Position numbers and translations under genes: made by a program. The notes under the pieces were generated by a model, which was given only the letters and a program-made list of their open reading frames with translations, was not told the DNA's origin and made no database searches. Below, one piece after another: positions 1,205-9,700 of a DNA stretch of 46,208 bases. This DNA comes from a virus. Positions within the stretch are counted from its first letter, which is position 1. Each line of letters begins with the position of its first letter. Location: positions 1-46,208 of the IMG/VR virus record IMGVR_UViG_3300017969_000022. One strand, 5' to 3'.

Positions 1205-1646
1205 TAGAGAAAAGTCTGCAATAGATGCCATTTATGATATGGAAAAAAAGCTAACAGATTTAGAAAAGAAAATTAAGGCAAGCGAGGGAAAACTTGATCT
1301 GCTTTTAGCCAAAGTAGATAAGCTTGGTAAGCAAGCCCCTGTTGTTAAGATAGATAGTACTCCAGCTCCGGTTAGTCAACAAAAAGTTGGAAAATTAGTT
1401 CTTGGGGCGGTAAAAGTATTTGGATATATTGTTAATAAGTCCAAAATGCCACTCGTTGCAGTTCAGGTAAAGATATATGATGAAAAAAATGAACTAATAA
1501 AAGACATAAAAACAAATGACGATGGCTACTGGGAGGTTAGATTACCTGCGGGCAGATACGGCGTAGAATATCTGCACAAAAACTTTAAGCCTCTTAATAA
1601 GGTAATAGAGTTTGGAAAAGAATCCAAAACTTATGAAGTAAGGTAA
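1188..1646 (+). CDS. Small coiled-coil protein with carboxypeptidase-regulatory-like beta-sandwich
   Basis: 152 residues. The ATG at 1188 follows a good GGAGG ribosome-binding site (about 1175-1179) inside the end of the preceding fibre gene, so the two are translationally coupled. Residues about 15-48 are a charged heptad-like helix (MEKKLTDLEKKIKASEGKL onward), probably a coiled coil that trimerises or dimerises. After a P/V/S linker, residues about 75-152 match the pattern of a transthyretin/carboxypeptidase-regulatory-like domain: VFGYIVNKSKMPLVAVQVKI, then DDGYWEVRLPAGRYGVEYLH. This is an Ig-like extracellular beta-sandwich seen in surface proteins and some phage fibres. With the upstream fibre gene it is most likely a fibre-associated or fibre-tip protein. 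The domain call rests on the characteristic GxW/LPAGxY strand-turn pattern; the role is inferred from position. Confidence 0.55.
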   Translation: MSQSNNREKSAIDAIYDMEKKLTDLEKKIKASEGKLDLLLAKVDKLGKQAPVVKIDSTPAPVSQQKVGKLVLGAVKVFGYIVNKSKMPLVAVQVKIYDEKNELIKDIKTNDDGYWEVRLPAGRYGVEYLHKNFKPLNKVIEFGKESKTYEVR

Positions 1647-1648
1647 TC

Positions 1649-2008
1649 ATGTTCGTTATAAGATTTTATGATAAGCATTTTAAAGAAAATGCGGTCTTAA
1701 ATAAAACTATAGGCAAGCTATCATCGCTTGTTAAAAGCAAAAGAAAATCTAAAACAAAAATAATAAAAGATTCAAATTGCGTAGAGATTATTTCTGGTAA
1801 TTTAAATGCGTCTAATATAGATAATGAAGTTGTAGTTGAGCTTACTGTAAAAAAGATATTAAGAATATCTGAGGAGCAACTAAAATCAAAAAGTGAGTTG
1901 GATCGTTTTATAAAAGAAATAGAAAACTTTTGTAATCAAGCATCTGAAATTGAAGATGTAAAATATTTGCCGCTAAACTTTAGAGATAAAGAAAACAGGC
2001 TAAAATAA
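1649..2008 (+). CDS. Hypothetical protein, 119 aa
   Basis: Not recognised. It starts three bases after the previous stop codon, with an AAGGT-type ribosome-binding site overlapping the end of that gene, so it belongs to the same transcription unit. The protein is lysine-rich with a basic stretch at about residues 26-40 (KLSSLVKSKRKSKTKIIK), then alternating beta strands (NCVEIISGN, VVVELTVKKI) and an acidic C-terminal helix (ELDRFIKEIENFC). There is no signal peptide or membrane segment. Its place between a fibre-like module and the tail-terminator candidate suggests a small tail or neck accessory protein, but nothing in the sequence proves that. Confidence 0.6.
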   Translation: MFVIRFYDKHFKENAVLNKTIGKLSSLVKSKRKSKTKIIKDSNCVEIISGNLNASNIDNEVVVELTVKKILRISEEQLKSKSELDRFIKEIENFCNQASEIEDVKYLPLNFRDKENRLK

Positions 2009-2020
2009 GCAGGATATAAA

Positions 2021-2827
2021 ATGATAGATCAGCAAAATCTAGCAGGAACAGGGCTAAATGGTGACCACATTGTTTACTCTAGCTTTTTCGCTGATAATTA
2101 TGTTGTTCAACAAACTGCTATCGTCCATCCAAAGGCCCTGCTTATAGATGGATTAAGAAAAATATTCCAAAATGATTCTGTATTTACATACAGAGATGAT
2201 GAATATGGTTATCCGCTTACACCAGATCTAACAGGTCTCGATGTTGATTCGGAATTAACTACAAAGATTCTCATATCAGATACCTTTAGATATGAGGTTA
2301 AGTTTTTCCCGGCTATTTTAATTAAGTCAAATGGCGGGTCCTATAAGCCTATCTCATTCAATCAGAATATGACATATAAATACAGAACTGATGTTATTGA
2401 GAATGAGTATGGTGCAAGAAAAGTTATTAGCACACCGACCCATCGAGTTTATACGGGGCGGTGGGAGCTTAGGTTTGATGTTCAGATATATTCGGAAAGC
2501 CAGGCTGAGCTGCAAGAGCTTACCGATATTGTATCGCTTGCTTTACAATATTCACTTTGGAATGAGCTTAGGGCAAATGGATTATTTATAAGCAATCTAT
2601 CAATTGGTGGAGAATCTGCTGAATCATATGCTAATGATTATGTATATAATACGGCAATATCACTTACAACTTTATCTGAGTGGAGAGTGGAAGTCCCTAT
2701 AGAAAATATCGTTGAAAAAATAGCTTTTACACTCGAACCAACATGGCACCCAATACCTGGAATTAAAACCAATGGCGACTCGTTATCGAGAAGGTTTAGT
2801 GAAATAGTTGATTTAACGGAAATTTAA
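2021..2827 (+). CDS. Candidate tail terminator / sheath-stabilising protein
   Basis: 268 residues, ATG at 2021 preceded by an AGGA motif. The order upstream of sheath and tube matches that of neck and tail-completion genes in contractile phages (T4 gp15 lies upstream of gp18 and gp19). Within the protein, residues about 89-110 (FRYEVKFFPAILIKSNGG) and about 142-175 (TGRWELRFDVQIYSES followed by a helix AELQELTDIVSLAL) give the mixed strand-helix-strand pattern seen in tail-terminator folds, where a ring caps the tube and the last sheath ring. The C-terminal part is again beta (WRVEVPIENIVEKIAFTLEP). There is no signal peptide. The identification rests on position and general pattern, not on a diagnostic motif; another neck protein is the main alternative. 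Confidence 0.45.
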   Translation: MIDQQNLAGTGLNGDHIVYSSFFADNYVVQQTAIVHPKALLIDGLRKIFQNDSVFTYRDDEYGYPLTPDLTGLDVDSELTTKILISDTFRYEVKFFPAILIKSNGGSYKPISFNQNMTYKYRTDVIENEYGARKVISTPTHRVYTGRWELRFDVQIYSESQAELQELTDIVSLALQYSLWNELRANGLFISNLSIGGESAESYANDYVYNTAISLTTLSEWRVEVPIENIVEKIAFTLEPTWHPIPGIKTNGDSLSRRFSEIVDLTEI

Positions 2828-2885: not shown

Positions 2886-5800
2886 ATGGCTAACATACCT
2901 GGAGTATCAGGATTCATACAGCCCGGAGCTTTTGCCAGAGATAGGGTTATCTCCAGGGGCGTATCTATTCCTGGTGGAATTAGAATAGTTTGCGTAATGG
3001 GCGAAGGCCTAAGGGAAGAGACTGTCATAGAGTCTGCCGCAGGCTCTGGTCAGGATGGAAGCGCTGATTGCAGTCCTACCGGAAGCGCTGATGGAAGATT
3101 TTTTAGACTCCAAAATTGGCCAGTCGTAAGCGGAAGAACCGAGCTTAGGCTAAATGGTACTCTTCTTTTCGGAAAGGAAGAAGACATAGATGCTAGCGGC
3201 GTTTCTACCCCCTTCGATTTCAGGCTTGACCCAACAACTGGCTGTATCGAGCTTAGGGGTGCATCAATTGGAGATCAAGACGGAAAAGGATATTCTGCCT
3301 CTTCATCAAATATAGGAAATGGAATTATTGTTGAAAACGATCTTTGTGATCCATTCATTACTCTTGATATCTTGGATGACTCCGCTCCAAGTGAGAGATG
3401 GACCATAAAGTGCGTCTCGGTTGTAAGAGACTCGAATGGTGATCCAATTCCTGGGCTATCTACATTCACCGCAACCGGATCAATCTCTGGCCAAATCTAC
3501 GATGACTCTGGCGCTCCAATAACATTTACTAGCGGTTACTTTACCAGTAGCGCTGGTGCTGTATCAGGAAACGTATCAGAGTGCGATGATGGATTCACCG
3601 TTGCATATGGTGATAATTCCGGAATGGCCTTCCCGAAGGGCGTGGTCAGAATGAGGGATGGAGATACCTCTCTGGATACCTCAAATACATTCGTTGTGCC
3701 TGGAGCGGACCTTGTATCGCAGGGCCAGGCTCTCCCTGGAGACTTCCTGTGTCTCGATGGTTATGCTGGTCACGAAATCGAGTCAATTGAGTATGATGGC
3801 ACGCTTAATGAGACAACGATTACGGTTATATCTGATAGCCTAGGTCCCGCAGACCCGGCGTGGGGAGAGGAGCCTGATGATGAGTTAGACTGGGCCATTA
3901 AGGCAACAAATATCCTTATTGACGACGATTCTGTTGTCCATGATGAGCTAACTGGTGAACCTCTTACGCAAGGAAACTTTACAGCAGGGGATATCGGAAA
4001 AACCGTTCTTATTTGCCCGGGCGCAAACTTCGGCGGCGGCAGATTTGTTATTACCGATGTAACATCCACTCGGCGTGTAAGACTTGTTTCTCTAGAGGAT
4101 GAAACAGCATCATTTGATGACATTGAGGGGGTCGGCGCTACTGGTCTTGCGGATACAGGCTTGACATTCCACCTGCTTCAGAACAACGGTCTACTTCTTC
4201 TCGGTATCGAGGAGGGCGGAACACCGTTTGAGGTGGGGGACAAGTTCTTTGTCGATGTAAGCTCTAGGGCGCTTGCTCAGGGCGATAACTTAGTGGCCAA
4301 GTATATTTATGAATTAGATCTTAATGATCCTCAGTTCTTCACTGAGGCAAATGATCTGTTTACCAAGCACGGCGCCGTAACCGAAACAAATACGTTGTCC
4401 CTTGGCGCTCAGTTAGCTCTTGAGAACGGCGCTCCTGGTGTGTTAGCCGTTCAGTGTAAGCCGCCTGTTCCACGCAGAACCTCAGCAACCCTTCTTGAGG
4501 AAAGAGATTCTCTTGGAAATGGAGGCTTCTCCTCCTGCTATGATTCAGGAACAAGCTCTGCTGATGCATGTGGCGTTGATGACCTTAGGTTTGTTATCCC
4601 AAGGCCGATTGAGGGGCTTAGGAATGGTAGGCCTGATGCCGATTCAAGAGTAAATATATTTGTTATAAGAGATGGCAAAGAGACTCAGGTTTTCCCAAAT
4701 AAAGTTGGATTCTATAACTCTCAGCTAGAGACAGATATTCAGCAGGGACAGTGGATTGGAAGCTCTGATAACGCCTTCTCATATACTATTGTTAACTCTG
4801 AGCTAGATATTGTTGCTAATGGTGTAGACGGAACACTAGACGCAACTGCTGGCCAGGAATTCTTCTCTACTCCTGAGATAGACTTTGATGGAGCAAATGC
4901 TGGAAACGTAATTGTTATAACTAGCATGGAGGACTCCTCCGGAACAGTATACACCTCTGTTGAAGAGATATCTGAGCAGCTTTTCGGTGTTGTTCTCGGA
5001 ACACCATCAGTCGAGCTTCTCATAGACTCAGTTCAAGATGATTCGCTTGTTTATGTATCTGCTGAAAATGGCGATCCACTAAACCTTCAGAGCACATACA
5101 CTGACGTGCAATTCTTCATAAAAGATCCTGCTAATTCTAATGCTGATGATGCCTCCCTGCTCCTTCACAAAGATCTTGTTTCAAGCGGAGTAATTAGGGA
5201 GGGCGATGGACTTAGAATTTCTTATGTTGATGAAAATGACGCAGACTTCTTTGATACAAACTGGTTTGAGGCACTAGAGGCTTTGGAGGCTGCCGAAGCG
5301 CAGATCGTTGTTCCGTTGCCAAGCCAGGCTATGTCCTCTATCTTTAGAGCAACTGTTAACCACTGCGAGAATATGAGTTCAATTATAAATAGGAAAGAAA
5401 GAGTAGCATTTATTGGCGCTCAAATGGGGGTTACGCCCGCTGCAATTATCGGTACCGAAGAAGTTGCCGTTGAAGATATTGGGGTGATTGAAGGCATCCA
5501 GGGAGATGATCCAGAGGAAGTTCTGGCCGGCAATACCGAGGACCTTGTCAACTTTAAATTGAGCGATAACTACACTAGCAACAGGTGCGTCTACTTCTAT
5601 CCAGATGAGATTGTTAGAAGTATTAATGGAACAAATGTTGCTTTGCACGGCTTCTTTGCAGCCGCTGCAGCCGCCGGATATCTATCGGCCAGACAAAACG
5701 TAGCAATACCTTTGACTAACAAGACTTTATCTGGGTTCTCCCTAACTAGAGACAAGGTTTACAGGCCAATAACCCAGAACCAGATCGGTGCGGTCGGAGC

Positions 5801-6167
5801 GACTCTCCTACAGCCAGTTTCTGGCGGAGCAAGGGTTCTTGCCGGAAGAACAACAAGTCAATCCGGTTTCGTTGAGGATGAGGAGATTTCAATAATCTTT
5901 ATTAGAGACTTCGTTAAGAAAACTTTAAGAAACTCTCTCGCAGGATTTATTGGAGGGGTTCAGAATCCCGATACAAACTTGCTTATCTCTAATAGAACAA
6001 AGTCTATTATGTCAGGATTAGTTGGTCAAGGATTAGTAACTTTCTTTGACAATATTAAGGTTGAGCAGGATAAGGTTGATCCAAGGCAAATTAATGTCTT
6101 CTTAAGATTTACTCCAGCTTATCCGATTAATTACATATTTATCGATATAGAAGTTGGAATTATATAA
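2886..6167 (+). CDS. Contractile tail sheath protein (oversized, with inserted domains)
   Basis: 1093 residues, far longer than T4 gp18 (659) or Mu-type sheaths (about 500). The start is fixed by GGAGG seven bases before the ATG. The N-terminus (PGVSGFIQPGAFARDRVISR) and the C-terminal 260 residues read as sheath: SIINRKERVAFIGAQMGVTP near residue 830, then CVYFYPDEIV, HGFFAAAAAAGYLSA, VAIPLTNKTLSGF, EEISIIFIRDFVKKTLRNS and the final beta arm VFLRFTPAYPINYIFIDIEV. This C-terminal domain makes the handshake contacts between sheath subunits around the tube. A core-like stretch (FTKHGAVTETNTLSLGAQLA) sits near residue 490. Residues about 60-480 and 540-800 look like surface insertions and include two GD/GK beta modules at about 271-340 and 358-432. 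It is richer in G+C than most of the window, consistent with very high expression. The tail tube gene follows after 14 bases. Confidence 0.92.
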   Translation: MANIPGVSGFIQPGAFARDRVISRGVSIPGGIRIVCVMGEGLREETVIESAAGSGQDGSADCSPTGSADGRFFRLQNWPVVSGRTELRLNGTLLFGKEEDIDASGVSTPFDFRLDPTTGCIELRGASIGDQDGKGYSASSSNIGNGIIVENDLCDPFITLDILDDSAPSERWTIKCVSVVRDSNGDPIPGLSTFTATGSISGQIYDDSGAPITFTSGYFTSSAGAVSGNVSECDDGFTVAYGDNSGMAFPKGVVRMRDGDTSLDTSNTFVVPGADLVSQGQALPGDFLCLDGYAGHEIESIEYDGTLNETTITVISDSLGPADPAWGEEPDDELDWAIKATNILIDDDSVVHDELTGEPLTQGNFTAGDIGKTVLICPGANFGGGRFVITDVTSTRRVRLVSLEDETASFDDIEGVGATGLADTGLTFHLLQNNGLLLLGIEEGGTPFEVGDKFFVDVSSRALAQGDNLVAKYIYELDLNDPQFFTEANDLFTKHGAVTETNTLSLGAQLALENGAPGVLAVQCKPPVPRRTSATLLEERDSLGNGGFSSCYDSGTSSADACGVDDLRFVIPRPIEGLRNGRPDADSRVNIFVIRDGKETQVFPNKVGFYNSQLETDIQQGQWIGSSDNAFSYTIVNSELDIVANGVDGTLDATAGQEFFSTPEIDFDGANAGNVIVITSMEDSSGTVYTSVEEISEQLFGVVLGTPSVELLIDSVQDDSLVYVSAENGDPLNLQSTYTDVQFFIKDPANSNADDASLLLHKDLVSSGVIREGDGLRISYVDENDADFFDTNWFEALEALEAAEAQIVVPLPSQAMSSIFRATVNHCENMSSIINRKERVAFIGAQMGVTPAAIIGTEEVAVEDIGVIEGIQGDDPEEVLAGNTEDLVNFKLSDNYTSNRCVYFYPDEIVRSINGTNVALHGFFAAAAAAGYLSARQNVAIPLTNKTLSGFSLTRDKVYRPITQNQIGAVGATLLQPVSGGARVLAGRTTSQSGFVEDEEISIIFIRDFVKKTLRNSLAGFIGGVQNPDTNLLISNRTKSIMSGLVGQGLVTFFDNIKVEQDKVDPRQINVFLRFTPAYPINYIFIDIEVGII

Positions 6168-6181
6168 TATAGGAGAATATA

Positions 6182-6811
6182 ATGGCTGAGTATCCAAATA
6201 CAGGAACTATTTTTGACAATCCAGATAATGGAAGTAAGACCAGAACGGCTCTTTCTACCCAGATTGTTGTCTATGTAGAGGGTGAGCCAGTAGGCGCCAT
6301 ACAAACATTCCAAGAGTCACAGTCACGCGCAATAAAACAGATTTCAGAAGTTGGCACGGATGGTATAATTGAGAATGTTCCACAGTCGCCAGCCAAGGTA
6401 ACCCTTACTATTAACAGAATTGTTTTTGATGGCTTATCGCTGCCAGAGGCCTTCTCTAGAGGATTTAGAAATATTCACGCACAAAGAATTCCTTTTGATA
6501 TAGTTGTTATAGATAAATTTACCGGAGATGGTGATAACGCAGTTGTAACAACTTACCATAATTGTTTCTTTTCTCAGCTAGGAAAAAACTATCAGGTTTC
6601 AGACTATACCATTCAGGAGAATGCAACAGTCATGCCGGAATTTATTTCAACCACTAGAGCTGGCGGACCTGTTGCTGATAGCCAGGGTGTTAACGGTGGC
6701 AGAGAGATTCCTGGCAGACAAGTTGACTCTGTTGAGCAATCTGCTGACACAGGAACTAGGCGCGGCCCGCTTGATTTTGCTGGACTAATTTCTGCTGCAT
6801 ATGGCAGCTAA
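6182..6811 (+). CDS. Tail tube protein
   Basis: 209 residues, ATG preceded by AGGAG. It directly follows the sheath, the standard order in contractile phages. The body carries the tube-family pattern: VVYVEGEPVGAIQTFQESQS, then RAIKQISEVGTDGIIENVPQ, VTLTINRIVFDGLSLPEAFS and PFDIVVIDKF. This is the beta-barrel with a long loop that stacks as hexameric rings to form the DNA conduit. The length is close to the usual 160-200 residues of gp19-like tubes; the extra C-terminal 40 residues (from about STTRAGGPVADSQ) are G/S/R-rich and probably flexible. The gene is closed by a strong intrinsic terminator about 20 bases downstream, so sheath and tube form the end of one transcription unit. Codon use is similar to the sheath gene. 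Confidence 0.88.
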   Translation: MAEYPNTGTIFDNPDNGSKTRTALSTQIVVYVEGEPVGAIQTFQESQSRAIKQISEVGTDGIIENVPQSPAKVTLTINRIVFDGLSLPEAFSRGFRNIHAQRIPFDIVVIDKFTGDGDNAVVTTYHNCFFSQLGKNYQVSDYTIQENATVMPEFISTTRAGGPVADSQGVNGGREIPGRQVDSVEQSADTGTRRGPLDFAGLISAAYGS

Positions 6812-6832
6812 ATTTAGTATAAATAATTAATT

Positions 6833-6866
6833 AAAGCATCATACATTTGTATGATGCTTTTTCTTT
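6833..6866 (+). terminator. Intrinsic terminator after the tail tube gene
   Basis: A perfect 12-bp stem (AAAGCATCATAC at 6833-6844 with GTATGATGCTTT at 6849-6860), a 4-base loop (ATTT) and a following T-rich run (TTCTTT, to 6866). It lies 21 bases after the tube stop codon. A Rho-independent terminator here separates the highly expressed sheath/tube pair from the chaperone and tape-measure genes, which are needed in smaller amounts. Confidence 0.87.
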
Positions 6867-6872
6867 ATGCGG

Positions 6873-6878
6873 TATAAT
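6873..6878 (+). promoter_or_regulatory. Candidate -10 box (TATAAT) before the chaperone gene
   Basis: A perfect TATAAT just after the terminator, 19 bases before the chaperone start codon. A start site about seven bases further would leave room for the GGAGAAG ribosome-binding site at 6889-6895. I see no good TTGACA-like -35 element at the usual spacing, so this may be a phage-type or extended promoter, or chance in AT-rich DNA. Its position right after a terminator is what makes it credible. Confidence 0.4.
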
Positions 6879-6897
6879 AACTTAAAATGGAGAAGAA

Positions 6898-7383
6898 ATG
6901 CCAAAAGTTAAAGCAAGTTTATCTGAAAATAATAGAATGGAAGAAATGAAAAGTTTATTAGAAGATACCGGTAGCACAAAAGAAGAATCTACTGAAAATA
7001 ATGAAAACTATATAGCTGATTTAAAAAATCTTATATTATTAGGCAGACTTGTTCATACTTTCAAAATAAATGGATTTGAGTTTGAAATAGCCACTTTATC
7101 TGTAAATGAGCAATCGGATGTAATGAGACATCTTATGAAGCAAGAGGATATGGAAAGAGTTCTTAACTCAAAATCTATAGCTCTTGCCTATTGCATCAAA
7201 AAGATAAACTCCGTTCCACTCTCTGATTTATCAGCAGAACATGAAGGGGATGACGTTTATGAGAAAAACGTATCATTCATACTAAATATGCAGGCTCTAT
7301 TAGTTGATAAAATATTCTCAGAATATGAAGAGTTAACGAAAAGAGCCTCAGAAAAGGTAGGCTTTGAAGCTGTAAAAAAATAG
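6898..7383 (+). CDS. Tail assembly chaperone, short form (G-like)
   Basis: 161 residues ending at TAG 7381-7383. Residues about 48-115 follow the tail-assembly-chaperone pattern: VHTFKINGFEFEIATLSVNE, a helix with SDVMRHLMKQEDMER, then KSIALAYCIKKINSVPLSDL. The first 45 residues are acidic, S/E/N-rich and probably disordered. The gene sits between the tail tube and the tape measure, the same place as lambda G/GT and equivalents in many phages. There the short product binds the tape measure and the frameshifted long product recruits tube subunits. Its last sense codons form the slippery run A AAA AAA, so a fraction of ribosomes should continue in the -1 frame. GGAGAAG precedes the ATG. Confidence 0.8.
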   Translation: MPKVKASLSENNRMEEMKSLLEDTGSTKEESTENNENYIADLKNLILLGRLVHTFKINGFEFEIATLSVNEQSDVMRHLMKQEDMERVLNSKSIALAYCIKKINSVPLSDLSAEHEGDDVYEKNVSFILNMQALLVDKIFSEYEELTKRASEKVGFEAVKK

Positions 7384-7814
7384 CAGCGGAGCCATACCAA
7401 AGGCTCCGCTGGAAATTGTGCAAAATTTGGGGATGCACAGTTGATGATCCTGTTTTTGAAACAATAACAGAATCTCAGTGGCTTTGGTATGCCAATATGG
7501 TAGCTAAAGATGAGCAGGATTCTAATGATCTAACGATAGATTTAATAGAATATCTTGCCTCATACTGGAATGCAGAAGCTGTCCAAAAGGTTAAGCAATC
7601 TAGAGAGAAGCCCGAAGATCATGGGTTTGCATCAGATGAAGAATTCGAAGAACAAGTAGTTTCTGGAGCCTTCAAGGAAGATAGTATAGTTCAGGCTATT
7701 AGAGACAAGTATAAAAATACTAATTTAGAAAGTAATAATATGAATTCTAATCCTAGAACGAGAAGGCTTCCAAAGGACCTTTCATCTATAAGAGATTTAT
7801 TTGGGGATGACTAA
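6898..7814 (+). CDS. Tail assembly chaperone, -1 frameshift fusion (GT-like), 305 aa
   Basis: Coding is join(6898..7380, 7380..7814): the base at 7380 is read twice. After the two lysine codons of A AAA AAA, the -1 frame reads ATA GCA GCG (IAAEPYQRLRWK) and runs without a stop into the downstream frame (CKIWGCTVDDPVFETITESQ and onward), adding 144 residues to the 161. That frame has only a TTG at 7416 as a possible own start, without a usable ribosome-binding site and just after a strong hairpin, so frameshifting explains its expression best. The added domain carries W/EY/N features of the T domain in GT-type chaperones: SQWLWYANMVAKDEQ, then DLIEYLASYWNAEAVQKV. The fusion's stop TAA overlaps the tape-measure ATG (TAATG at 7812-7816), indicating coupled translation. 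Product and mechanism are inferred from sequence; the frame arithmetic is directly visible. Confidence 0.85.
7374..7411 (+). promoter_or_regulatory. Programmed -1 ribosomal frameshift signal
   Basis: The heptamer A AAA AAA lies at 7374-7380 in the correct phase and is followed at once by the zero-frame stop TAG (7381-7383). A perfect 10-bp GC-rich hairpin follows: CAGCGGAGCC (7384-7393), loop ATACCAAA (7394-7401), GGCTCCGCTG (7402-7411). Both lysyl-tRNAs can re-pair fully after slipping back one base. Heptamer, adjacent stop and stimulatory stem together are the classic bacterial/phage -1 frameshift arrangement. The 3-base spacer is shorter than the usual 5-9, but the lowest C-G pair may be open on the ribosome. 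Confidence 0.87.
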
Positions 7815-9700
7815 TGGCGTCAGATGATATAACGACAAATGCCGAAAAAGCCGAGGATTCCCTTAGTAAGCTCAAAGGGACTGTTAGCGGAGTTGCCGAC
7901 GCCGTTAATAAGCTTAATTCACTAGGTTATAGCTCATCGGAATCAGTTGGAGGCATGGTGAATGCTTTCGATGATCTTACCAACTCAGTCAACGCTTTAA
8001 CGAGCCCTCTGACAGGTGCCGCCGGTCTTTTAAATAACTTTATATCTGGAGCCACCGATGTAGATCTTGGAGGTCTTCTTGATCCGTTAGGTGACGCAAT
8101 GGATATTATGAGTAAGCTTCCTGATGGCGCCAAAGCTGCATTCGAGGGGATGTCTGAAATATTTGATAAGCCTAGCGAAGAATTAAGAAAATTTGATAAA
8201 GAAATGTTTAATGTCGGTAAAAGATTTGGCGACTCAATAGAGGCATCAAAAGAATTTGCCGATTCGTTAAAACTTATACCTGCAAGCGGATTTGGAAGAG
8301 AATTACAAATACATCAAGCTGAGCTTTCCAAAGCTTATGCGGCAGCCGGACGCTATAACTTAAGTCAAGAAACATTAAATAAAACAATAACCACATCTAT
8401 TGGCTCAACAAACTTGCTAACTGCAGCTTATGCTTTTGGGGAATCGGCCGGCATGCAAGCCAGTGAATCAATGGGGCTTTTAAATACAATTGTTAATAGC
8501 CAGGGTGTGGCCGTAGAAGAGGTAACTGGTATATTTGGAACTTATGTTGGTGTTGCAAAAGAAGTTGGTATGCAAATAGATGATGTTGCAACCACATTGA
8601 ATCGGGCAGTTTCTGGATTCTCAAAGCTTGGAGTATCTGCAGACTTCGGCGCACCAATATTGGAAGGATTTGGTCGAGTTGTAAAAGATATGGGGCTAGG
8701 CTTAGATGAGGCGAAAGATCTTACACAAAGCTTATCTGGAGCACTAGGTGGTCTTACCGAAAATTATGGTAATGCGTATGTTATGTTTCAAAGGGGCGGA
8801 TTAGATTTTGGCGCCGGAGGTGGAGTTCTTGGGGCGTCTATTGGTCTTCAGGCAGAGTTTTTAAACGCTGAAAAATCTGGTGATCAAGCTGCAATTGGGT
8901 CACAGCTTGTTGGAGCCATGAGAGATACTCTTGAGTCATTTACTGGAGGGAGTATAGTTACTGTATCTGAGGCTGCAGAAAGCCCAGAGTTGCAGACTCA
9001 GTTTTATACTCAGCAGCAGTTGCTTATGAATCAATTCGGGATAAGAGATCAGTCTTCTGCGACAAGAACACTTGAGCTTTTATCAGAAATTGATGATGCA
9101 ACTAGGTCTGGAAATACAGAAAGAAAAGAGGAGCTGGAAAAGCAGCTACAAAATGAGGCAGAGGGAAGAGATAAAACACTAGATGTATATGAGCAAATGA
9201 ACAGGGAGCTTCAATCTCAAAGTTTGCTTTTAGCGGTTATTGCAAGGCCAAGTCTAGAAAAGATGCACAGCGCTGGTAAACAGCTGGGGGATGCTCTGGT
9301 TGTGCCCCAAATTAGAGGAATAGGAGAGGAGGGAAGAAGGCAGTTTAAAGAGCAACAAGATAATCTAAATGATATGATAGACAGCGTAATAAAAACAGCT
9401 GGAGGGGGCGCTGGAGCACAGAAAATTATTAATGCTGTAGACCCGGCTTCTGCAATTCAGAGTGCTACAGCAGATAAGCTAGAGAAGGGGACCATGGATG
9501 CATTTAGAAGAGAAGTGGGCGAAATATCAGGTGGTTTAAATCCAGAAGATTATAAAGAAGCAATAGTGGAGGCTCTCACTCAGGCTCTCGCAGAAAGTGG
9601 CCAGCAAAATGTAAATGTTACCATTGATTTCAGTGACCCAGAGCTGGCAAAAATGATTATGGCATATGCAGATGTTGCGAAACAGGTAGCAGGTTCTTAA
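7814..9700 (+). CDS. Tail tape measure protein
   Basis: 628 residues, predominantly helical, Ala/Gly/Ser/Leu-rich, located directly after the chaperone pair, with its ATG overlapping the chaperone stop. Low-complexity helical stretches (AEKAEDSLSKLKGTVSGVAD; GLLDPLGDAMDIMSKL) are followed by a tape-measure-type central region of repeated G-containing helices (LTAAYAFGESAGMQASESM; VSGFSKLGVSADFGAPILEG; LTQSLSGALGGLTENYGN). A charged helix (TRSGNTERKEELEKQLQNEA) and a Gly-rich linker (KTAGGGAGAQKIINA) come near the C-terminus. The protein sets tail length and lies inside the tube. At the usual 0.15 nm per residue for helix, 628 residues would span roughly 94 nm if all of it were ruler; this is an estimate. 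There is no clear transmembrane segment and no lytic domain, unlike many siphophage tape measures. Confidence 0.8.
   Translation: MASDDITTNAEKAEDSLSKLKGTVSGVADAVNKLNSLGYSSSESVGGMVNAFDDLTNSVNALTSPLTGAAGLLNNFISGATDVDLGGLLDPLGDAMDIMSKLPDGAKAAFEGMSEIFDKPSEELRKFDKEMFNVGKRFGDSIEASKEFADSLKLIPASGFGRELQIHQAELSKAYAAAGRYNLSQETLNKTITTSIGSTNLLTAAYAFGESAGMQASESMGLLNTIVNSQGVAVEEVTGIFGTYVGVAKEVGMQIDDVATTLNRAVSGFSKLGVSADFGAPILEGFGRVVKDMGLGLDEAKDLTQSLSGALGGLTENYGNAYVMFQRGGLDFGAGGGVLGASIGLQAEFLNAEKSGDQAAIGSQLVGAMRDTLESFTGGSIVTVSEAAESPELQTQFYTQQQLLMNQFGIRDQSSATRTLELLSEIDDATRSGNTERKEELEKQLQNEAEGRDKTLDVYEQMNRELQSQSLLLAVIARPSLEKMHSAGKQLGDALVVPQIRGIGEEGRRQFKEQQDNLNDMIDSVIKTAGGGAGAQKIINAVDPASAIQSATADKLEKGTMDAFRREVGEISGGLNPEDYKEAIVEALTQALAESGQQNVNVTIDFSDPELAKMIMAYADVAKQVAGS

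Follow-up and report, generated by a model that had tools for sequence, protein, structure and literature searches.

A conserved slippery heptamer and hairpin at a predicted -1 frameshift site in the tail assembly chaperone gene of uncultured phages related to Bacillus phage G

Does the reading frame in front of a phage tape measure gene end at its first stop codon, or is it continued by the overlapping -1 frame as a single gene? The question arises at a junction in a 46-kb virus record (46,208 nucleotides, the whole stretch analysed, referred to as the window), where the zero-frame ORF 6898-7383 ends with GTA AAA AAA TAG. The comparison with related junctions makes it very probable that a programmed -1 ribosomal frameshift yields a G protein and a G-T fusion, with the hairpin behind the stop under selection. 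Automatic annotation would split such a chaperone gene and give its second half a false start.

The junction and its place among the tail genes

The preliminary description had reported an in-phase heptamer, an adjoining TAG, a 10-bp stem 3 nt later and a 305-aa fusion, and all of these were correct to the base (Table 1). The -1 frame contains no stop from 7368 to 7811. As it is open only from 7368, the shift must fall in the short overlap holding the A7 run, and the fusion then comprises 161 + 144 = 305 aa. The perfect 10-bp stem with its 8-nt loop has a folding energy of -21.9 kcal/mol; none of 200 dinucleotide shuffles folded as well (z = -5.3), and the window has no second perfect 10-bp hairpin rich in GC. 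The A7 run alone is unremarkable (13 such runs in the window against about 17.5 expected). A search against Rfam gave no match. Given its conservation across relatives, the cassette as a whole lies far beyond what chance would produce.

Table 1. Features of the junction, of its neighbouring genes and of the deviating relative L106 (L106 positions refer to its own contig).
Feature	Position	Strand	Basis
Probable tail tube protein	6182..6811	+	E = 3e-11 to PHROG 985 (virion structural protein); next gene after sheath
Zero-frame ORF, G-like tail assembly chaperone, 161 aa	6898..7383	+	PHROG and fold matches
Slippery heptamer A AAA AAA, in phase	7374..7380	+	kept in 69/70 distinct relative junctions
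Zero-frame stop TAG, touching heptamer	7381..7383	+	sequence
Stem-loop, 7384-7393 paired with 7402-7411, loop 7394-7401	7384..7411	+	folding, comparison
-1 frame T domain, 144 aa post-shift, stop 7812-7814	7380..7814	+	open frame; phage G gp182 match
Tape measure protein	7814..9700	+	PHROG 167, E = 2e-4; Pfam TMP_3 below its cut-off
L106 G (chaperone ORF)	1504-1878		sequence comparison
L106 intrinsic terminator	between G and T		stem followed by T8, -20.4 kcal/mol
L106 T, own ATG	1941-2366		tape measure directly after

The genes are ordered tail sheath, probable tube (so named from its position), chaperone pair, tape measure and baseplate genes. The pair thus sits between tube and tape measure, as in the lambda gpG/gpGT class, and the tape measure gene overlaps the T stop by 1 base. 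The first ORF matched two PHROGs annotated as tail assembly chaperone, 2992 (E = 8e-5) and 2792 (E = 4e-4); PHROG 2992 was also matched by 7 of 27 relatives of this ORF, so that the chaperone matches are weak but consistent. In BFVD, a fold model of G (pLDDT 82) matched annotated chaperones, among them phage G gp181/gp182 at E about 4e-7 and one from a Rhodococcus phage at E = 6e-5; the model had no significant match in a PDB fold search. For the T domain, phage G gp182 was the only significant match of sequence or fold outside metagenomic contigs (E = 7e-5 with the T-domain model); no PHROG was matched by any of its 26 members, and Pfam gave nothing useful for either half. By gene order and homology the pair is a predicted tail assembly chaperone of the lambda gpG/gpGT type.

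Relatives of the window lie on contigs of up to 340 kb, and the window is therefore probably a fragment of a jumbo phage; among the bacterial and archaeal genome contigs searched we found no relatives. Three further observations concern the same region and record. The sheath gene (2886-6167) encodes an unusually long protein of 1093 aa, of which only the C-terminal third matches known sheath families. In the gap between tube and chaperone (6812-6897), a 12-bp hairpin and its T-rich tail at 6833-6860 resemble an intrinsic terminator; TATAAT comes next, at about 6873, and this arrangement may lower chaperone expression relative to the tube. The T4-late-promoter-like motif TATAAATA occurs 13 times in the window on both strands against 6.6 expected, a number reached by 2 of 100 shuffles, and this excess probably reflects only base composition.

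Conservation of the slip site

The comparison set consisted of 70 distinct relative junctions, namely 55, a further 14 from broader queries, and L106. The alignment of relatives, which the preliminary description had named as a check, bore out the heptamer in phase in 69 of the 70. Within the 55 junctions, 47 have A AAA AAN (29 AAA, 15 AAC and 3 AAG) and 8 have T TTA AAA, located one codon earlier and followed by one sense codon and then the stop; the 14 further junctions all show the same two heptamer types. In nearly all junctions the stop holds the same position with respect to the T domain, and in L092, L129, L185 and L190 the stop comes one codon later after A AAA AAN. Codon bias was analyzed with 45 diverged representatives (<75% identity). 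The Lys codon of the heptamer was AAA in 45/45 compared with a baseline of 59%, and the base before the Lys codons was A in 45/45 instead of the 18 expected, with the residue varying between Val, Leu, Ile and Ser. A conserved in-phase slippery site close to where the first ORF ends is a trait of the gpG/gpGT class, and the window and its relatives share it.

An identical fusion would result if RNA polymerase added a base on A7 and the altered mRNA was translated normally; A7 is a plausible run for such slippage, and one extra A gives the identical protein. However, relatives keep the arrangement with four A only (T TTA AAA followed by GAA, GTA or GCA) or with A6 C, and a polymerase would need neither the conserved phase nor the hairpin. 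Since a change from A AAA AAN to T TTA AAA preserves the slip potential and not the A-run, ribosomal slippage is preferred, and slippage of the polymerase, which we consider very improbable, was rejected on this evidence.

The T part might also be a separate gene, translated by reinitiation at TTG 7416 or at a later ATG. The TTG is present, the frame is open, and in L106 T is indeed a gene by itself that starts with ATG. On the other hand, the codon corresponding to 7416 is TTG in only 9 of the 55 junctions, no start codon occurs within T codons 1-20 in 32 of them, and conservation of the -1 frame reaches back as far as the heptamer; it covers the RLRW motif, which is encoded within the stem, ahead of the TTG. 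Position 7416 is the mechanical start of the ORF, as described before, and the rarity of the TTG supports its earlier designation as a false start. With conserved coding upstream of a rarely conserved TTG, we rejected reinitiation as extremely improbable.

Constraint on the hairpin and its geometry

Both arms of the stem also code for protein, namely for E-P and R-L-R-W. In a covariation count on these coding arms, the score and the number of paired cells exceeded all shuffles and two of five measures did not; compensatory pairs were found at columns 16-39 (G-C/A-U/U-A) and 22-33 (C-G/U-A). Because protein coding constrains both arms, base-pair counts are not decisive, and for this reason we used a randomisation that keeps the protein constant and redraws the synonymous codons, with a site some 40 codons further downstream as the control. 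With this procedure 35 of 45 junctions were among the most stable 5%, compared with 3 of 45 at the control site, and the median z was -3.05 at the junction and -0.38 at the control; the second part of the alignment check, the stem, was thus confirmed as well. In the diverged representatives two stem codons were GAG in 18/18 and 23/27 cases (baseline 34%), the Leu codon of the stem was CTC in 25/34 (baseline 6%; nominal p 2e-24, which ignores relatedness) and its Arg codon CGC in 17/36 (baseline 9%). Codons 12-18, just downstream of the stem, matched the baseline and showed no synonymous bias. Six relatives (L023, L025, L027, L028, L083 and L088) have rebuilt the stem with a 3' arm further downstream, an arrangement that protein constraint can hardly account for. 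Judged by these comparisons, selection acts on the hairpin, which the majority of about 70 related uncultured phages have retained, and likewise on the heptamer, on where the stop lies and on the protein of the -1 frame.

The hairpin together with A7 could alternatively serve as an intrinsic terminator for transcription of the minus strand (stem then CTATTTTTTT), and a pattern scan does list a minus-strand terminator with 10 pairs, 8 of them GC. But the large genes nearby are all located on the plus strand, the core stem is at least 7 nt away from the run in most relatives, a long U-run is missing in the T TTA AAA group, and frame phase and synonymous choices follow translation. This reading is next to impossible and was rejected in view of the gene orientation, the distance of the core stem from the run and the translation-linked constraint.

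As part of a -1 frameshift signal, the stem has a conserved 6-bp core (7388-7393/7402-7407), which is separated from the heptamer by 7 nt; only in close relatives, the clade of the window, is it extended by 4 outer bp on the side of the stop. A spacer of 5-9 nt is usual for -1 sites (review PMC5009743), and the core spacing lies inside this range. The spacer had been described as shorter than that of dnaX, which is valid for the drawn 10-bp stem and did not stand as a separate design: with the core 7 nt away and the outer pairs clade-specific, the short spacer is probably a lengthening of the core stem and not a different mechanism.

What we infer for this site as regards slippage and how efficient it is, stimulation by the hairpin, and the functions of the chaperone products is as follows. 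Most ribosomes would end at TAG 7381 and release the 161-aa G protein. Some would hold two tRNAs on AAA AAA in the P and A sites with the hairpin, which is probably stimulatory, placed against the mRNA entry channel, slip back by one base, re-pair, and continue with ATA (Ile) to the 305-aa G-T fusion. By analogy to lambda, G would coat the tape measure and the fusion would recruit tube subunits.

Relation to known frameshift sites and exceptions among relatives

Tail-chaperone -1 frameshifting is an established class that also includes myoviruses such as P2 (PMC5009743; Xu et al. via PMC3091744). In lambda gpG/gpGT and the class of Xu, Hendrix and Duda the -1 shift lies near the end of the first ORF, between the tube and tape measure genes (PMC5009743, PMC3091744). 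The window resembles this class in its predicted short and fused products, a likeness that implies no sequence similarity to lambda; a low proportion of fusion, with G binding the tape measure and T the tube, would be expected by analogy with the class. At certain tailed-phage sites frameshifting proceeds with no recognised stimulator (PMC5009743), and a structure downstream of phage chaperone sites is described as rare (PMC3091744), whereas in the group of the window the hairpin is widely conserved. The mechanism is already known in phages; the window is a further case with a conserved hairpin uncommon for a chaperone gene, and it offers an unusually clear example of a 3' hairpin selected at such a site.

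With E. coli dnaX the site shares an A-rich heptamer, a hairpin of 10 bp positioned at the mRNA entry channel (PMC7282821), and the combination of heptamer and 3' stem-loop under selection. It differs in having A AAA AAA instead of A AAA AAG and a stop touching the heptamer, and the 24 nt before the heptamer contain no AGGA, GGAG or GAGG as an internal Shine-Dalgarno. The apparent spacer is 3 nt compared with 5 nt in dnaX, and melting of two end pairs gives the dnaX spacing of 5 nt. In E. coli tests A AAA AAA shifts less readily than A AAA AAG (review PMC5009743), which counts against the frameshift reading, as do several distant relatives without a good stem and the separate genes of L106.

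Bacillus phage G was the only cultured relative found. Its gp181/gp182 pair, just before the tape measure, is homologous in both parts (27-28% identity, tblastn) with matching folds, has an in-phase A AAA AAC followed by TAG, and is already annotated as one chaperone gene in which gp182 is a join with gp181. In contrast to the window, the phage G heptamer is A AAA AAC and not followed by a strong hairpin, and the T part has 252 aa instead of 144 aa. Among the papers searched, none joined phage G, jumbo phage and chaperone frameshifting, and a paper that names phage G and tail assembly chaperone makes no mention of frameshifting. The present comparison extends tail-chaperone recoding to a broad set of uncultured, partly jumbo, phages related to phage G.

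Heptamer and frames are kept without a convincing stem in phage G, L057, L071, L101, L107 and L108. In the weak-hairpin relatives L101, L107, L108 and L110, AGGAGGT or GGAGGT is located about 13 nt upstream of the heptamer; possibly this GGAGGT acts as a dnaX-like Shine-Dalgarno stimulator instead of the stem. The sole junction of the 70 without a slip site is that of L106. Its G and T share 27% and 40% identity with those of the window, and both halves are true relatives. This single metagenomic contig suggests that read-through of the terminator replaces frameshifting and that the G:T ratio would be set by transcription. Frames kept without heptamer or stem, the case named beforehand as speaking against the signal, were seen at the edge of the group only, in a few distant relatives without a convincing stem and in L106, where both proteins persist but the frameshift signal is absent. 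These natural switches of heptamer, stem and mechanism lend themselves to comparing the ways in which a phage sets a protein ratio. We tentatively consider, as a rather doubtful possibility, that the selected trait is the ratio of G to G-T and not one device; inside a single phage lineage this ratio would be set by a moving heptamer (A AAA AAN to T TTA AAA), a rebuilt 3' arm of the hairpin, possibly an upstream Shine-Dalgarno where the hairpin is poor, and in L106 a split fusion with the terminator between its parts.
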